Source: Bacillota bacterium
Lineage (GTDB): Bacteria; Bacillota; Clostridia; Peptostreptococcales; Anaerovoracaceae
Length of the DNA stretch: 64,000 nucleotides
NCBI GenBank assembly: GCA_017522185.1
Contig: JAFWZZ010000016.1
Span: forward strand, 1 to 64,000
Direction: 5' to 3'
The translations under genes and the position numbers were made by a program. Position 1 is the first letter of the stretch. Every line of letters starts with the position of its first letter. This document shows positions 5,150 through 28,693 of the stretch, in pieces. The notes beneath the pieces are model-generated. The model was not told where the DNA came from. It saw only the letters and a program-made list of their open reading frames with translations, and did no database searches.

Positions 5150-5950
5150 TTAATTCACTCTTTCAAGTGTAAATTTATGATTTTTATTATCGTCTATGGC
5201 GCATCCCATTTTCATGTCAACCGTTTCTGTGGTTCCATCATCAAAGTTTACACCACAGGTTATAACAACACCATCTAAAAGTTCCTGATAATGTTTTTCT
5301 AAGTCCTGAATTGTTGGATCTTCTGCTGAAATGAAATCCCCGCCATCTGATAAAGGAATTCCTTCTCTAGCAATATTAATCCATATCGTCTCTGAACTTT
5401 GCAGATTATAGTCTAATGTAAAGTTGGAATAATATTTTACTTCACTACCGGGACCGCCACCATTTTGGCCTGCATTGATTACATCAATTTCATTTCCCTC
5501 AGCTATATTACTTTTACCCTTTTTTTCTACTATCTGAAAACCACCTTTGTTCACACTGTAATCAATATTTTTAATATGTTCCCCTTCAAATTTAATTGGA
5601 ATATTGATACAGTAATATCCACTATCATACTCGTCCGTTCCTATAGAATGTCCCCCTATACCTGGATTGATTGCCAATTTCTCGCCAATGTGCAATTCAT
5701 CTTTTGTGCTGTCATCAGCCGCATTTACCACTAAAACAAAGCTTTGTGCATCTTTCGCAAAGAAGCCATTGCCTGCAGTTACACCAAATACTGAAAGCAT
5801 AACGATACACGTAGCGATTAAAGTTCTTTTTGCCATAAAACCGAATGCAGTCTTCCTTGATTCTTTCATTGATTCTACCTCCACATGAAAATGCTTGGAG
5901 GTATGTAATACCTTGAACGCATCCTTATATTTTTCACGATTCGTCTTCAT
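5150..5950 (-). CDS. Putative membrane-anchored anti-sigma-like protein
   Basis: Protein of 266 residues encoded directly after, and overlapping by 17 bases, an ECF sigma factor gene. The N-terminus (about 40 residues, charged) would be cytoplasmic. One membrane segment (TLIATCIVMLSVFGVTAG, near residues 43-60) precedes an extracytoplasmic region of about 200 residues rich in Gly, Asp and Lys. Position and topology match the anti-sigma partner of an ECF factor, but I recognise no named anti-sigma domain. By inference it holds the sigma factor inactive and senses an external signal. Confidence 0.6.
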   Translation of the reverse strand: MKTNREKYKDAFKVLHTSKHFHVEVESMKESRKTAFGFMAKRTLIATCIVMLSVFGVTAGNGFFAKDAQSFVLVVNAADDSTKDELHIGEKLAINPGIGGHSIGTDEYDSGYYCINIPIKFEGEHIKNIDYSVNKGGFQIVEKKGKSNIAEGNEIDVINAGQNGGGPGSEVKYYSNFTLDYNLQSSETIWINIAREGIPLSDGGDFISAEDPTIQDLEKHYQELLDGVVITCGVNFDDGTTETVDMKMGCAIDDNKNHKFTLERVN

Positions 5951-6419
5951 TCCACGCCTCCTTCAACTTTTCTTTGAGAAGTTTCCTGCCTCGCGCCAAT
6001 TGACTCTTTACCGTATTTTCTTTAACCTGTAAAATCTCACTTATTTCGCTGATTGAATAATCTTCAAAGTAAAACAAATGCAACACCACCCTGTATTTTC
6101 TTGGCAGAGACATAACCGTATCGAACACCTGACTGTCTTCCTGCGTCTCAAAAGGCAGCTCCTGCATATACTCCTGAAAAGTTATACGATTTCGCTTCCA
6201 AAATGACAGCACTATGTTTTTCGCCTGATTGATGGTAACACGCAGAAGCCATGCTTTGATGTGCTGTTCACTTTCGAAATCCTGTTTACTTTTCAAATAT
6301 TTCAAATAGGTTTCTTGCACAATGTCCTCTGCATCCTGAGCATTCTTGCATATACTGAATGCTGCAGAAAACAAATTGTCTTTATATTTTTTTACCAGTA
6401 ATTCTATTGGCACCCTCAT
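5934..6419 (-). CDS. ECF-type RNA polymerase sigma factor
   Basis: Sigma-70 family group IV factor of 161 residues. Region 2 is LFSAAFSICKNAQDAEDIVQETYLKYL (residues 14-40), including the DAEDIVQET core. Region 4 is LPRKYRVVLHLFYFEDYSISEISEILQVKENTVKSQLARGRKLLKEKL (about 109-156), an HTH for the -35 element. GAGGAG precedes the start. Its stop overlaps the putative anti-sigma gene, so the two are translationally linked. A promoter-like TGCAAC element upstream suggests autoregulation. The regulon is unknown. Confidence 0.9.
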   Translation of the reverse strand: MRVPIELLVKKYKDNLFSAAFSICKNAQDAEDIVQETYLKYLKSKQDFESEQHIKAWLLRVTINQAKNIVLSFWKRNRITFQEYMQELPFETQEDSQVFDTVMSLPRKYRVVLHLFYFEDYSISEISEILQVKENTVKSQLARGRKLLKEKLKEAWNEDES

Positions 6420-6528: not shown

Positions 6529-6557
6529 TTGACATCAGTAATCAAATCACGTAAAAT
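6529..6557 (+). promoter_or_regulatory. Strong sigma-A promoter for a small RNA
   Basis: TTGACA at 6529-6534, exactly 17 bases, then TAAAAT at 6552-6557. No coding gene follows on the plus strand. The predicted transcript starts near 6564 and runs into a hairpin plus T-run near 6650, convergent with the small toxin gene. Confidence 0.75.
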
Positions 6558-6563
6558 ATAAGT

Positions 6564-6650
6564 ACAAAAGAGCTACCGATGAACGGTTTGCTCCAACAGA
6601 TGATTTATAAGAAATAAACCGCTTTGTTTGGTAGCATGGGCGGTTTTTTC
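6564..6650 (+). ncRNA. Candidate antitoxin small RNA, about 85 nt
   Basis: Predicted from a consensus promoter at one end and an intrinsic terminator at the other; there is no open frame of note. GCTACC (6572-6577) can pair with GGTAGC (6630-6635), and AAACCGC (6616-6622) with GCGGTTT (6640-6646). It is transcribed towards the toxin gene and overlaps the expected 3' end of the toxin mRNA. This is the geometry of Gram-positive type I antitoxins such as RatA and SR4. It also carries the 12-base sequence ACGGTTTGCTCC found in the toxin leader. The start and end are inferred. Confidence 0.6.
6616..6650. terminator. Shared terminator of small RNA and toxin mRNA
   Basis: Stem AAACCGC / GCGGTTT (6616-6622, 6640-6646) followed by T-rich sequence on the plus strand. 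On the minus strand, downstream of the toxin stop, the same stem is followed by ATTTCTTAT, a weaker tail. Confidence 0.6.
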
Positions 6651-6666
6651 TTATATCAAAGAAAAT

Positions 6667-6747
6667 CTAATGCTTGTTATAAAACAAGGCGATGATTGTT
6701 GCGATAACCATTGTGTAAGCTAAAAGCTGATCTAATGTTATGTACAT
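6667..6747 (-). CDS. Small hydrophobic type I toxin-like peptide (holin-like toxin type)
   Basis: Peptide of 26 residues: MYITLDQLLA, then a single membrane helix (YTMVIATIIALF), then a short basic end (YNKH). The pattern of a few N-terminal residues with L-x-Q-L, one helix and a Lys tail matches the short 'putative holin-like toxin' peptides of Firmicutes. The start at 6747 is set by GGAGG eight bases upstream; an ATG six bases earlier is too close to that site. The ribosome site is sequestered in a hairpin, the promoter carries a LexA box, and a small RNA converges on the gene. By inference it damages membranes when produced during the SOS response. No homology search was possible. Confidence 0.72.
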   Translation of the reverse strand: MYITLDQLLAYTMVIATIIALFYNKH

Positions 6748-6756
6748 CTTCATCAC

Positions 6757-6777
6757 CTCCTATCCGTAAGATAGGAG
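6757..6777 (-). promoter_or_regulatory. Hairpin hiding the toxin ribosome site
   Basis: In the toxin leader CTCCTATC pairs perfectly with GATAGGAG (8 bp, five-base loop), which covers the AGGAGG that drives toxin translation. Such sequestration is typical of type I toxin mRNAs, which stay silent until refolded or processed. Confidence 0.75.
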
Positions 6778-6796
6778 CAAACCGTCCACCGTTGAT

Positions 6797-6830
6797 GACT
6801 TGCCTGCATCTATGATGCAGCGCGCAAGTC
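6797..6830 (-). other. Leader hairpin A of the toxin transcript
   Basis: GACTTGC-CTGCATC-TAT-GATGCAG-CGC-GCAAGTC: two stacked 7-bp stems, a three-base loop and one three-base bulge. It lies in the predicted 5' leader of the toxin mRNA. Its loop context ATC-TAT-GAT is identical to that of hairpin B. Confidence 0.7.
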
Positions 6831-6838
6831 ACATGCAA

Positions 6839-6869
6839 GGTTTCACAAATCTATGATTTGATTGAAACC
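6839..6869 (-). other. Leader hairpin B of the toxin transcript
   Basis: GGTTTCA-CAAATC-TAT-GATTTG-AT-TGAAACC: stacked 7-bp and 6-bp stems with a bulge on the same side as hairpin A and the same apical loop, eight bases away from it. The arms differ in sequence while the architecture is kept, which suggests selection for structure. Confidence 0.7.
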
Positions 6870-6899
6870 ACTGCTGTCAAGGGTAACTCTTCTATAAAT

Positions 6900-6935
6900 A
6901 TTATATCATCGCTCGTACGAAAGAACAAGCGTTCG
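6900..6935 (-). promoter_or_regulatory. LexA-box promoter of the toxin gene
   Basis: On the minus strand the -35 TTGTTC (6923-6928), 17 bases, and -10 TATAAT (6900-6905) predict a start near 6893. The -35 lies inside CGAACGCTTGTTCT (6922-6935), a GAAC-N4-GTTC palindrome matching the Gram-positive LexA/DinR box. A repressor there would block the promoter until DNA damage. A second TTGACA (6875-6880) downstream has only a poor -10. Confidence 0.7.
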
Positions 6936-27519: not shown

Positions 27520-28693
27520 CTAAGTTACCTCCATCGATTGTTTTAATCGCTTCAATTAGAACCATCGTTCCTTTTTCAATGTGTTCCTCTTTTGAAAACT
27601 CATCTTTGTGATGGCTTATGCCATTTACGGATGGTATAAAAAGAAGTGCACTCGGCATTATCATGCTTGTATTAATTAGATCATGGCCTGCTCCGCTGTA
27701 AACAGTAGTTTCTTTGTATCCAAGCTTCTCTGCACATTCTTTAAAGACTGCTGTAAGTTCAGGCGAACATATGGTATTCTCCTGCTCTATAATCTTTGTC
27801 ATCTCAATATTTTCTCCGGCATGCTTCTGCTGAAGTTCCTCAATTACCTCATGCATGTCAATCATGTCTTTATCTCTAAGTTCAATGATAAACTCTGCTT
27901 TTCCCGGAATTACATTGACAGCTCCCGGTTCCAGATTTAATACTCCGATAGTGCACACCATTGTATTATTTTTTCTTCGTGCCATGTCGTATGCATCCGT
28001 GATAATATTACATGCCATTTCAAGAGCATCATGTCTCAAATACATTGGAGTGCTTCCGGCATGGTTGGTAACTCCGCTCACAACCACTCGGTATCTGATT
28101 ATTCCAAAAATTCCAGGCACAATGCCTATCTCCATATTTGTCTTTTCTAGAATTCCACCCTGTTCAATATGGTATTCCAGGTATGCAAGATAATCTTCTC
28201 CTTTTCGTACGGAGCTGTTAAAGTCAGACACGGTCATACCATACTCTGCCATCTTCTCAATCATGCTTTCTTCGAGTTTGGCACCTGCAAAGGCTTTGCT
28301 TCCAAATGTGCCTCCAACAACATTCCCCTCTTCTTCGTTAAAGGCGATAATCTCTATAGTATGTTTGTTCTGATAGTTCATTTCTTTAAGCACCCTTACA
28401 GCTTCAATTCCGGCAAGTACACCTAGTGCACCATCATACATCCCACCATTTGGAACAGTATCAATATGGGAACCGATTGCTATTTTCTTACTATCAGTGC
28501 CTTCTAAAACCCCAGTAAGATTTCCTACAGCATCTATATGCGTCACTAAGCCTGCTTCCTCCATTAGAAACTTAACGAAATCCCTGCCTTTGAAAAAAGC
28601 CTCAGAATATGCCATTCTGCTTGTTCCTTTACCTTCTTCATATCCGATATTTCCTAGTTTTTTTATATCGGCCATAAGTCTATCAATATTCAT
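27500..28693 (-). CDS. M20 family N-carbamoyl amino acid amidohydrolase (HyuC/allantoate amidohydrolase type)
   Basis: Zinc hydrolase of 397 residues. IAIGSHIDTVPNGGMYDGALGV carries the first metal His and the bridging Asp, IIAFNEEEGNVVGGTFGSKAFAG the catalytic Glu pair, and EYHIEQGGILE another ligand. The dimerisation insert with SGVTNHAGSTPM and the final HDLINTSMIMPSALLFIPSVNGISHH complete the family pattern. It removes the carbamoyl group from N-carbamoyl amino acids (allantoate or ureidopropionate in relatives). It is the first gene of the operon, divergent from the LysR regulator. Confidence 0.88.
   Translation of the reverse strand: MNIDRLMADIKKLGNIGYEEGKGTSRMAYSEAFFKGRDFVKFLMEEAGLVTHIDAVGNLTGVLEGTDSKKIAIGSHIDTVPNGGMYDGALGVLAGIEAVRVLKEMNYQNKHTIEIIAFNEEEGNVVGGTFGSKAFAGAKLEESMIEKMAEYGMTVSDFNSSVRKGEDYLAYLEYHIEQGGILEKTNMEIGIVPGIFGIIRYRVVVSGVTNHAGSTPMYLRHDALEMACNIITDAYDMARRKNNTMVCTIGVLNLEPGAVNVIPGKAEFIIELRDKDMIDMHEVIEELQQKHAGENIEMTKIIEQENTICSPELTAVFKECAEKLGYKETTVYSGAGHDLINTSMIMPSALLFIPSVNGISHHKDEFSKEEHIEKGTMVLIEAIKTIDGGNLDENKNY

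Follow-up and report, generated by a model that had tools for sequence, protein, structure and literature searches.

This locus raises the question of whether a member of the Clostridia encodes a type I toxin-antitoxin pair whose toxin is controlled by LexA. It is found in a 64,000-nucleotide stretch of contig JAFWZZ010000016.1 (GenBank assembly GCA_017522185.1, family Anaerovoracaceae), which is called the window below. We think it quite probable that this is a type I toxin-antitoxin module on the chromosome, belonging to the SOS regulon. The parts are as follows.

6529..6557, plus strand: antitoxin RNA promoter (TTGACA from 6529, 17 nt, TAAAAT to 6557; 11 of 12 consensus positions)
6564..6656, plus strand: predicted antitoxin small RNA of about 93 nt, its ends placed by promoter, terminator, and fold (z -4.79 versus shuffles)
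6570..6594, plus strand: conserved antitoxin 5' hairpin, GAGCTACCG-ATGAA-CGGTTTGCTCC (seen in the fold and as a pattern in relatives)
6606..6656, no strand assigned: bidirectional terminator common to both RNAs (stem in the folds of both strands; T-runs)
6667..6747, minus strand: toxin-like peptide gene, ATG at 6747 to stop at 6667, MYITLDQLLAYTMVIATIIALFYNKH, 26 aa, a single hydrophobic helix
6756..6760, minus strand: Shine-Dalgarno sequence GGAGG, 8 nt upstream of the peptide ATG
6757..6777, minus strand: hairpin burying the Shine-Dalgarno sequence, CTCCTATC / GATAGGAG (MFE and centroid folds)
6774..6791, minus strand: leader element CGGTGGACGGTTTGCTCC, with the same sense sequence as in the antitoxin 5' hairpin (inverted repeat with 6577-6594, 89%)
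6793..6880, minus strand: two extra long leader hairpins (from the fold; by eye missing from related loci L015-L017 and L025)
6882..6889, minus strand: toxin mRNA 5' arm GAGTTACC, counterpart of the antitoxin 5' arm GAGCTACC
6900..6928, minus strand: toxin promoter (-10 TATAAT 6905-6900, spacer 17, -35 TTGTTC 6928-6923)
6923..6934, no strand assigned: predicted LexA box GAACAAGCGTTC (GAAC-N4-GTTC, 8 of 8 positions), overlapping the toxin -35

A preliminary description of this region reported a 26-residue one-helix peptide with a ribosome site, a TATAAT promoter whose -35 lies inside a GAAC-N4-GTTC box, and a long structured leader, and all three stand. The box it placed at 6922-6935 is the one listed here plus one base on each side, and the toxin mRNA folds with a z score of -6.3 relative to shuffles. 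The -35 is poor, matching 3 of 6 consensus positions, and the spacing of the toxin promoter is identical in L015, L016, L017, and L025. The leader element, a counterpart of which is found in relatives, forms with the antitoxin 5' hairpin the longest inverted repeat (18 nt). The extra leader stretch of about 90 bases is placed in the loop of the 5' hairpin.

The same description proposed a convergent small RNA with a consensus promoter and terminator. The promoter is borne out, and antitoxin promoters of homologues match at least 9 of 12 positions in 116 of 150 cases, versus 10 of 151 for a reversed control. The terminator is evident in the folds and T-runs, and the homologue in genome G011 aligns at the same place, but the element is absent from the output of a consensus scan, which allows only loops of 3-8 and which reported one other terminator, at 6990-6966 on the minus strand. 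By sequence, with the predicted ends, the toxin mRNA and antitoxin RNA would overlap at their 3' ends by about 49 nt. Promoter-like sites in the stretch are not above chance (8 found, 9.4 expected), and promoter-like matches taken alone were not counted as evidence. The signal above chance comes from comparison, in the hairpin pattern of family genomes and the boxes at toxin promoters given below. A gene for an ECF-type sigma factor (Sigma70_r2 and r4) is located at 5934-6419, just past the antitoxin promoter.

The peptide had been likened to Gram-positive holins. This fits two of the ten peptides scanned, which pass the Hol_Tox cut-off of 23.3 (L149 with 24.0 and L180 with 23.5 bits), and not the window peptide, which has no match to the Hol_Tox profile PF16935 or to any Pfam or NCBIfam family. 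A reading frame led by a Shine-Dalgarno sequence is present in 97 of the 103 loci that have the leader, and 93 of these 97 encode strongly hydrophobic peptides; the remaining four resemble misreads. Among 101 pairs of homologous peptides, which have members in common and hence are not independent, mean pS is 0.42 and mean pN is 0.07, with pN below pS in 100 pairs. The peptides thus appear to be under purifying selection, which fits a type I toxin-antitoxin pair, as do the convergent, near-consensus antitoxin promoters. Peptide types vary on the same RNA and include STYEE/TYEA-like and MLTIEGLIAVIS...LGYSLGK-like forms. Of the eight toxins of the STYEE type (L004, L006, L007, L010, L018, L022, L172, and L182), seven apparently start with ATT or ATC and one with TTG. 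These non-ATG starts sit behind strong Shine-Dalgarno sequences, and the ATT/ATC starts are possibly a brake on translation.

The product might alternatively be a small membrane protein, induced in the SOS response, whose role at natural levels is to adjust membrane potential, division, or recombination instead of killing, with the RNA as a plain antisense regulator. We consider this unlikely. The window peptide and its kin are indeed single helices with charged ends, the ATT/ATC starts of one clade imply low output, and the module at L008 has a uvrB-like neighbor by eye; DinQ of E. coli provides an established example (PMC3567139). However, two layers of repression together with a buried Shine-Dalgarno sequence fit a harmful product better, as does the loss of the toxin with retention of the antitoxin that is seen by eye in L060 and in another copy of the module elsewhere in this genome.

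The genome encodes LexA (PF01726, 68.7 bits against a cut-off of 23.7, with the open reading frame read). Perfect GAAC-N4-GTTC sites occur 19 times genome-wide and the reversed pattern 21 times, which is a chance number, so the count by itself is uninformative and the position of a box is informative. Apart from the site in the locus, 17 of 18 perfect sites were scanned for nearby open reading frames, the site at window position 27559 being left out. Boxes are found just upstream of the nameable genes recA (GAACATTTGTTC) and radA (GAACATTCGTTC, the gene name being a by-eye assignment based on the N-terminal sequence), and one perfect box (L031) is located 98 nt upstream of an open reading frame of unknown function. 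The lexA promoter carries GAACAAGTGTTT, which matches 7 of 8 positions. In C. difficile, the uvrB box is GAAC-N4-GTTC and those of lexA and recA are GAAC-N4-GTTT (PMC4234289), and because the latter deviate in this way, 7-of-8 matches are meaningful.

The second copy of the module, at G000:C21:116357 (L035:1058-1270), has a perfect box 2 nt from its -10 and retains the leader, terminator, and antitoxin; by eye, a toxin-like hydrophobic peptide is not seen between its leader and terminator. One genome thus holds a copy with the box at 17 nt, in the window, and another with the box at 2 nt. Within this genome the exact combination of box and TATAAT at 2 nt occurs in the second copy alone, and allowing one mismatch adds four more sites (control, two).

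Boxes recur at the toxin promoters of relatives. In 100-nt regions from 101 distinct loci (of 103 with the leader, those dropped being duplicates or too short), a box matching at least 7 of 8 positions is present in 33, versus 2.0 expected by shuffling; the window's own box falls outside the 100-nt region, owing to its long leader, and is not among the 33. The same search finds 1 box among 102 antitoxin promoters (80 nt) and 1 among 99 regions further upstream (100 nt). With a wider search region, applied to 104 of 107 loci, the count is 37 of 104, the window's own locus included. Of these 37, 18 have the box 2 nt from the -10, 2 have it at 3 nt, 4 at 8 nt, and 5 at 17 nt (the window's own locus, L015, L016, L017, and L025); 7 have other distances and 1 has no recognized -10. 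Some of the boxes, such as those of L154 and L172, are probably chance occurrences. Among named carriers, Butyrivibrio hungatei XBD2006 (L053) has the box and Coprococcus comes MSK.16.63 (L057) lacks it. In L008, a single box is common to the module and to a divergently transcribed neighbor that by eye looks like uvrB.

The recA genes of these genomes provide a reference. A box of at least 7 of 8 is found in all 28 upstream regions, from 27 genomes with and without a module box, where chance would place one in an estimated one region in eight (330 nt scanned per region). These 28 regions are what remained of 30 loci after L214 (truncated at its 5' end) and L216 (below cut-off) were set aside; a recA match was obtained in all but one of the 29 genomes. 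Chance as the source of the boxes at toxin promoters was rejected on the basis of their excess over shuffling, their set distances from the -10, and the boxes at recA.

It is very improbable, in our estimate, that the box binds another regulator or is a chance occurrence in its own genome. The chance-level genome-wide count would agree with this explanation, as would the presence of another word, TTCGACA, at the same place in some promoters that lack a box, but the motif is also found at the recA, radA, and lexA genes of the same genome and in every recA region scanned. TTCGACA occurs at the box position in 10 of the 67 box-less toxin promoters (L064, L085, L091, L093, L100, L121, L126, L127, L133, and L153) and in none of the 37 with a box, the reversed word being found in none and its reverse complement in 1 of 104; perhaps it is another operator. 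Control by LexA, which the preliminary description had proposed, is thus supported at the sequence level for the window's toxin promoter by the encoded repressor, by the motif at recA, radA, lexA, and the second copy, and by recurrence of the box in relatives. The resemblance to tisB/istR of E. coli that was also claimed, in convergent layout, holds for the placement of the box on the toxin promoter, but 67 of the 104 related loci, G011 (L004) among them, have no box of at least 7 of 8.

The module is patchy within the genus: by BLAST, it is present in one of 12 other genomes, the box-less G011. At the family level, the search for the same block in relatives that had been suggested finds the antitoxin 5' hairpin pattern, at up to one mismatch, in 15 of 197 genomes (the window's own included; reversed control, 0). 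A similar pattern is found in 16 of 297 genomes of the order, all 16 in the same family. GTDB contigs contain at least 118 stretches with the exact pattern. Among the matches listed, 40 of 80 titles say Lachnospiraceae and a few name Megasphaera, Anaerovibrio, and others; some twenty more are genera that we take to be Lachnospiraceae. Several genomes have two hairpin matches apiece. A leader was not found by regular expression in 46 of 153 antitoxin matches, a count that includes some cut by contig ends and that is too high, as a variant leader can be made out by eye in L056 and L072 at the least.

Ten viral contigs (L217-L226) carry the antitoxin hairpin; in several, the leader and terminator are also visible by eye, and four show the same sequence. 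The module therefore also travels with prophages or neighbors of prophages. BLAST of the module against phage records gave no match. Antitoxins that appear by eye to have lost the rest of the module are found next to an apparent uvrB and its LexA box (L060), near a LexA box (L169), in a locus interrupted soon after the antitoxin by an apparent insertion (L118), and ahead of another gene (L014). Such orphan antitoxins may protect against sister toxins. Adjoining the G011 module, at L004:1800-2060, is an apparent second convergent pair, an RNA with promoter and terminator and a 32-aa peptide, MEQIFLSFINSVIASVVAYYICKWLDRENRKR when translated by eye, that has a weak, sub-cut-off match to a C. difficile type I toxin model.

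This distribution bears on the idea that the locus is a type I addiction pair brought by mobile elements, with an incidental LexA box and a purpose other than SOS control. The viral contigs, the double matches in several genomes, the patchiness within the genus, the degenerate copies, and the box-less loci would all suit it. Nonetheless, we find it improbable, since boxes at toxin promoters far exceed the shuffled expectation and keep preferred distances from the -10, and the toxin-less copy in the same genome retains its box.

The 5' element has the same sequence in both the toxin mRNA and the antitoxin RNA, and it is therefore not a plain antisense match, which qualifies the earlier reading of the locus as a type I pair. 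For longer segments, simple 5' antisense pairing was not supported, as cognate partners equal non-cognate ones (45-46 of 99 loci), with cognate and non-cognate duplex energies of -18.34 and -18.66 for the linker and -21.83 and -21.36 for the hairpin segment. The element is instead a hairpin repeated in inverted order, so its arms can be exchanged.

Short-arm energies were calculated for 92 loci, or 88 where the leader 5' arm is used, the window's own not among these. The antitoxin 5' arm pairs with its own 3' arm at -10.2 kcal/mol (shuffled -9.75, sd 0.13) and with the leader element at -9.90 (shuffled -9.65, sd 0.13), the cognate being barely better in the latter case, where the best of 30 shuffles reaches -9.91. 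The leader 5' arm pairs with the antitoxin 3' arm at -8.5 kcal/mol (shuffled -7.9, sd 0.12), with the leader's own middle at -6.6, and with the leader's own 3' element at -6.8 (shuffled -7.2). Sense identity of the two elements is 0.632 within loci and 0.573 between loci (sd 0.007; 100 distinct pairs), and kinship among the loci inflates this comparison as it does the arm-energy and covariation tests. Cofolding of the 5' regions gains only 1.0 to 7.0 kcal/mol in seven loci and in a second, shorter test on the window's own locus.

The leader may also pair with an arm of the terminator. Of the loci with a stem, 69 of 81 with a GGCGG leader have a GGCGG terminator, and 4 of 5 with a GGACGG leader have a GGACG terminator, the exception being the window's locus; no stem was found in a further 20 loci of the first kind and 1 of the second. 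These matches come from few clades, and the terminator stem would have to open. Arm exchange combined with 3' pairing is the most likely model for the RNAs on the basis of these data, and competition for a shared partner is the alternative.

We infer LexA binding, transcription, and toxicity along the following lines. In an undamaged cell, LexA on the box over the -35 would block the toxin promoter, and any leaky toxin mRNA would be silenced by the constitutive, convergent antitoxin RNA. The antitoxin 5' arm could pair with CGGUUUGCUCC of the leader and the leader 5' arm with the antitoxin 3' arm, with GCUACC and CGGUUAGC among the arms of this proposed exchange, and the 3' ends of both RNAs would pair over about 49 nt. 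Such pairing might block ribosome loading or invite RNase III, adding to the hairpin that buries the Shine-Dalgarno sequence. Upon DNA damage, RecA would trigger LexA cleavage, toxin mRNA would exceed the antitoxin, and the 26-aa membrane peptide would then be made and could depolarize the membrane or slow growth.

The closest parallels by description come from E. coli, Enterococcus, and Bacillus. The tisB/istR-1 pair of E. coli has a LexA-controlled toxin, a constitutive RNA antitoxin, a 29-aa membrane peptide, and a structured leader (PMC4147584, PMC8309996), and, as in that pair, the box lies on the toxin promoter and not on that of the antitoxin in the relatives counted above. In contrast, tisB and istR-1 are divergent, whereas the window genes converge and their RNAs overlap at their 3' ends, and the E. 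coli LexA motif is CTGT-N8-ACAG (PMC4234289). The dinQ/agrB and symE/symR pairs of E. coli are likewise described as LexA-controlled type I toxins in a different host (PMC4147584); SymE is cytosolic (PMC8309996), unlike the predicted membrane peptide of the window.

The par system of Enterococcus plasmid pAD1 (fst, RNA I/RNA II) resembles the module in its convergent RNAs, its bidirectional terminator, and the repeats with pairing potential at the 5' end of each RNA; pairing in par involves the 5' repeats as well as the common terminator (PMC8167048). However, par has direct repeats DRa and DRb at its 5' ends, whereas in the module these ends carry a hairpin in inverted orientation; its two direct repeats are located at other places (6658/6723 and 6808/6849). 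The window differs further in that its peptide has no NCBIfam match and the module no Rfam match, and SOS control is not among the features of par in the passages of PMC8167048 that describe it. (The same paper once places TisB in Bacillus subtilis, an apparent slip, as its next sentence refers to the E. coli membrane.) A scan with 4227 Rfam families at gathering score gave no match in the window and, in 20 loci, only a tRNA outside the module; four matches at a relaxed threshold (E 0.41 to 4.4) were taken as chance.

Hol_Tox peptides and the TxpA/RatA- and BsrG/SR4-type pairs of Bacillus also comprise small Gram-positive peptides with 3' overlap of toxin and antitoxin (PMC4147584); the window peptide has no Hol_Tox match and the module no Rfam match. 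A 2014 review states that the Gram-positive type I pairs described until then overlap at their 3' ends (PMC4147584). Heat-dependent decay is described for bsrG, bsrE, and yonT RNAs, with symE, tisB, and dinQ as the examples of SOS control (PMC6562991). Neither LexA nor SOS is mentioned in the main text of a 2020 study of type I pairs in C. difficile (PMC7699646). In agreement with the preliminary description, which knew of no described case with this set of parts, the open-licence papers searched give LexA-controlled type I toxins only for E. coli, and a Gram-positive LexA-controlled pair was not found in their titles and abstract openings.

A broader proposal, which we offer tentatively and think somewhat less likely to be right than wrong, is that Clostridia have a large family of SOS-linked type I modules, as yet undescribed, to which this locus belongs. 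In such a family the antitoxin 5' end would be a sense copy of the toxin mRNA 5' end, acting by arm swap with the leader or by competition for a common partner. Several kinds of toxin peptide would be carried on one RNA chassis, and orphan antitoxins may confer cross-protection.

In Lachnospiraceae and Anaerovoracaceae the LexA box sits at several set distances from the -10, which suggests that a coupling between DNA damage and an RNA-guarded membrane peptide arose more than once. The module offers an RNA family that is absent from Rfam and has an unusual sense-copy design. It also makes testable whether SOS-driven dormancy, as proposed for TisB, might occur in gut anaerobes facing DNA-damaging drugs.
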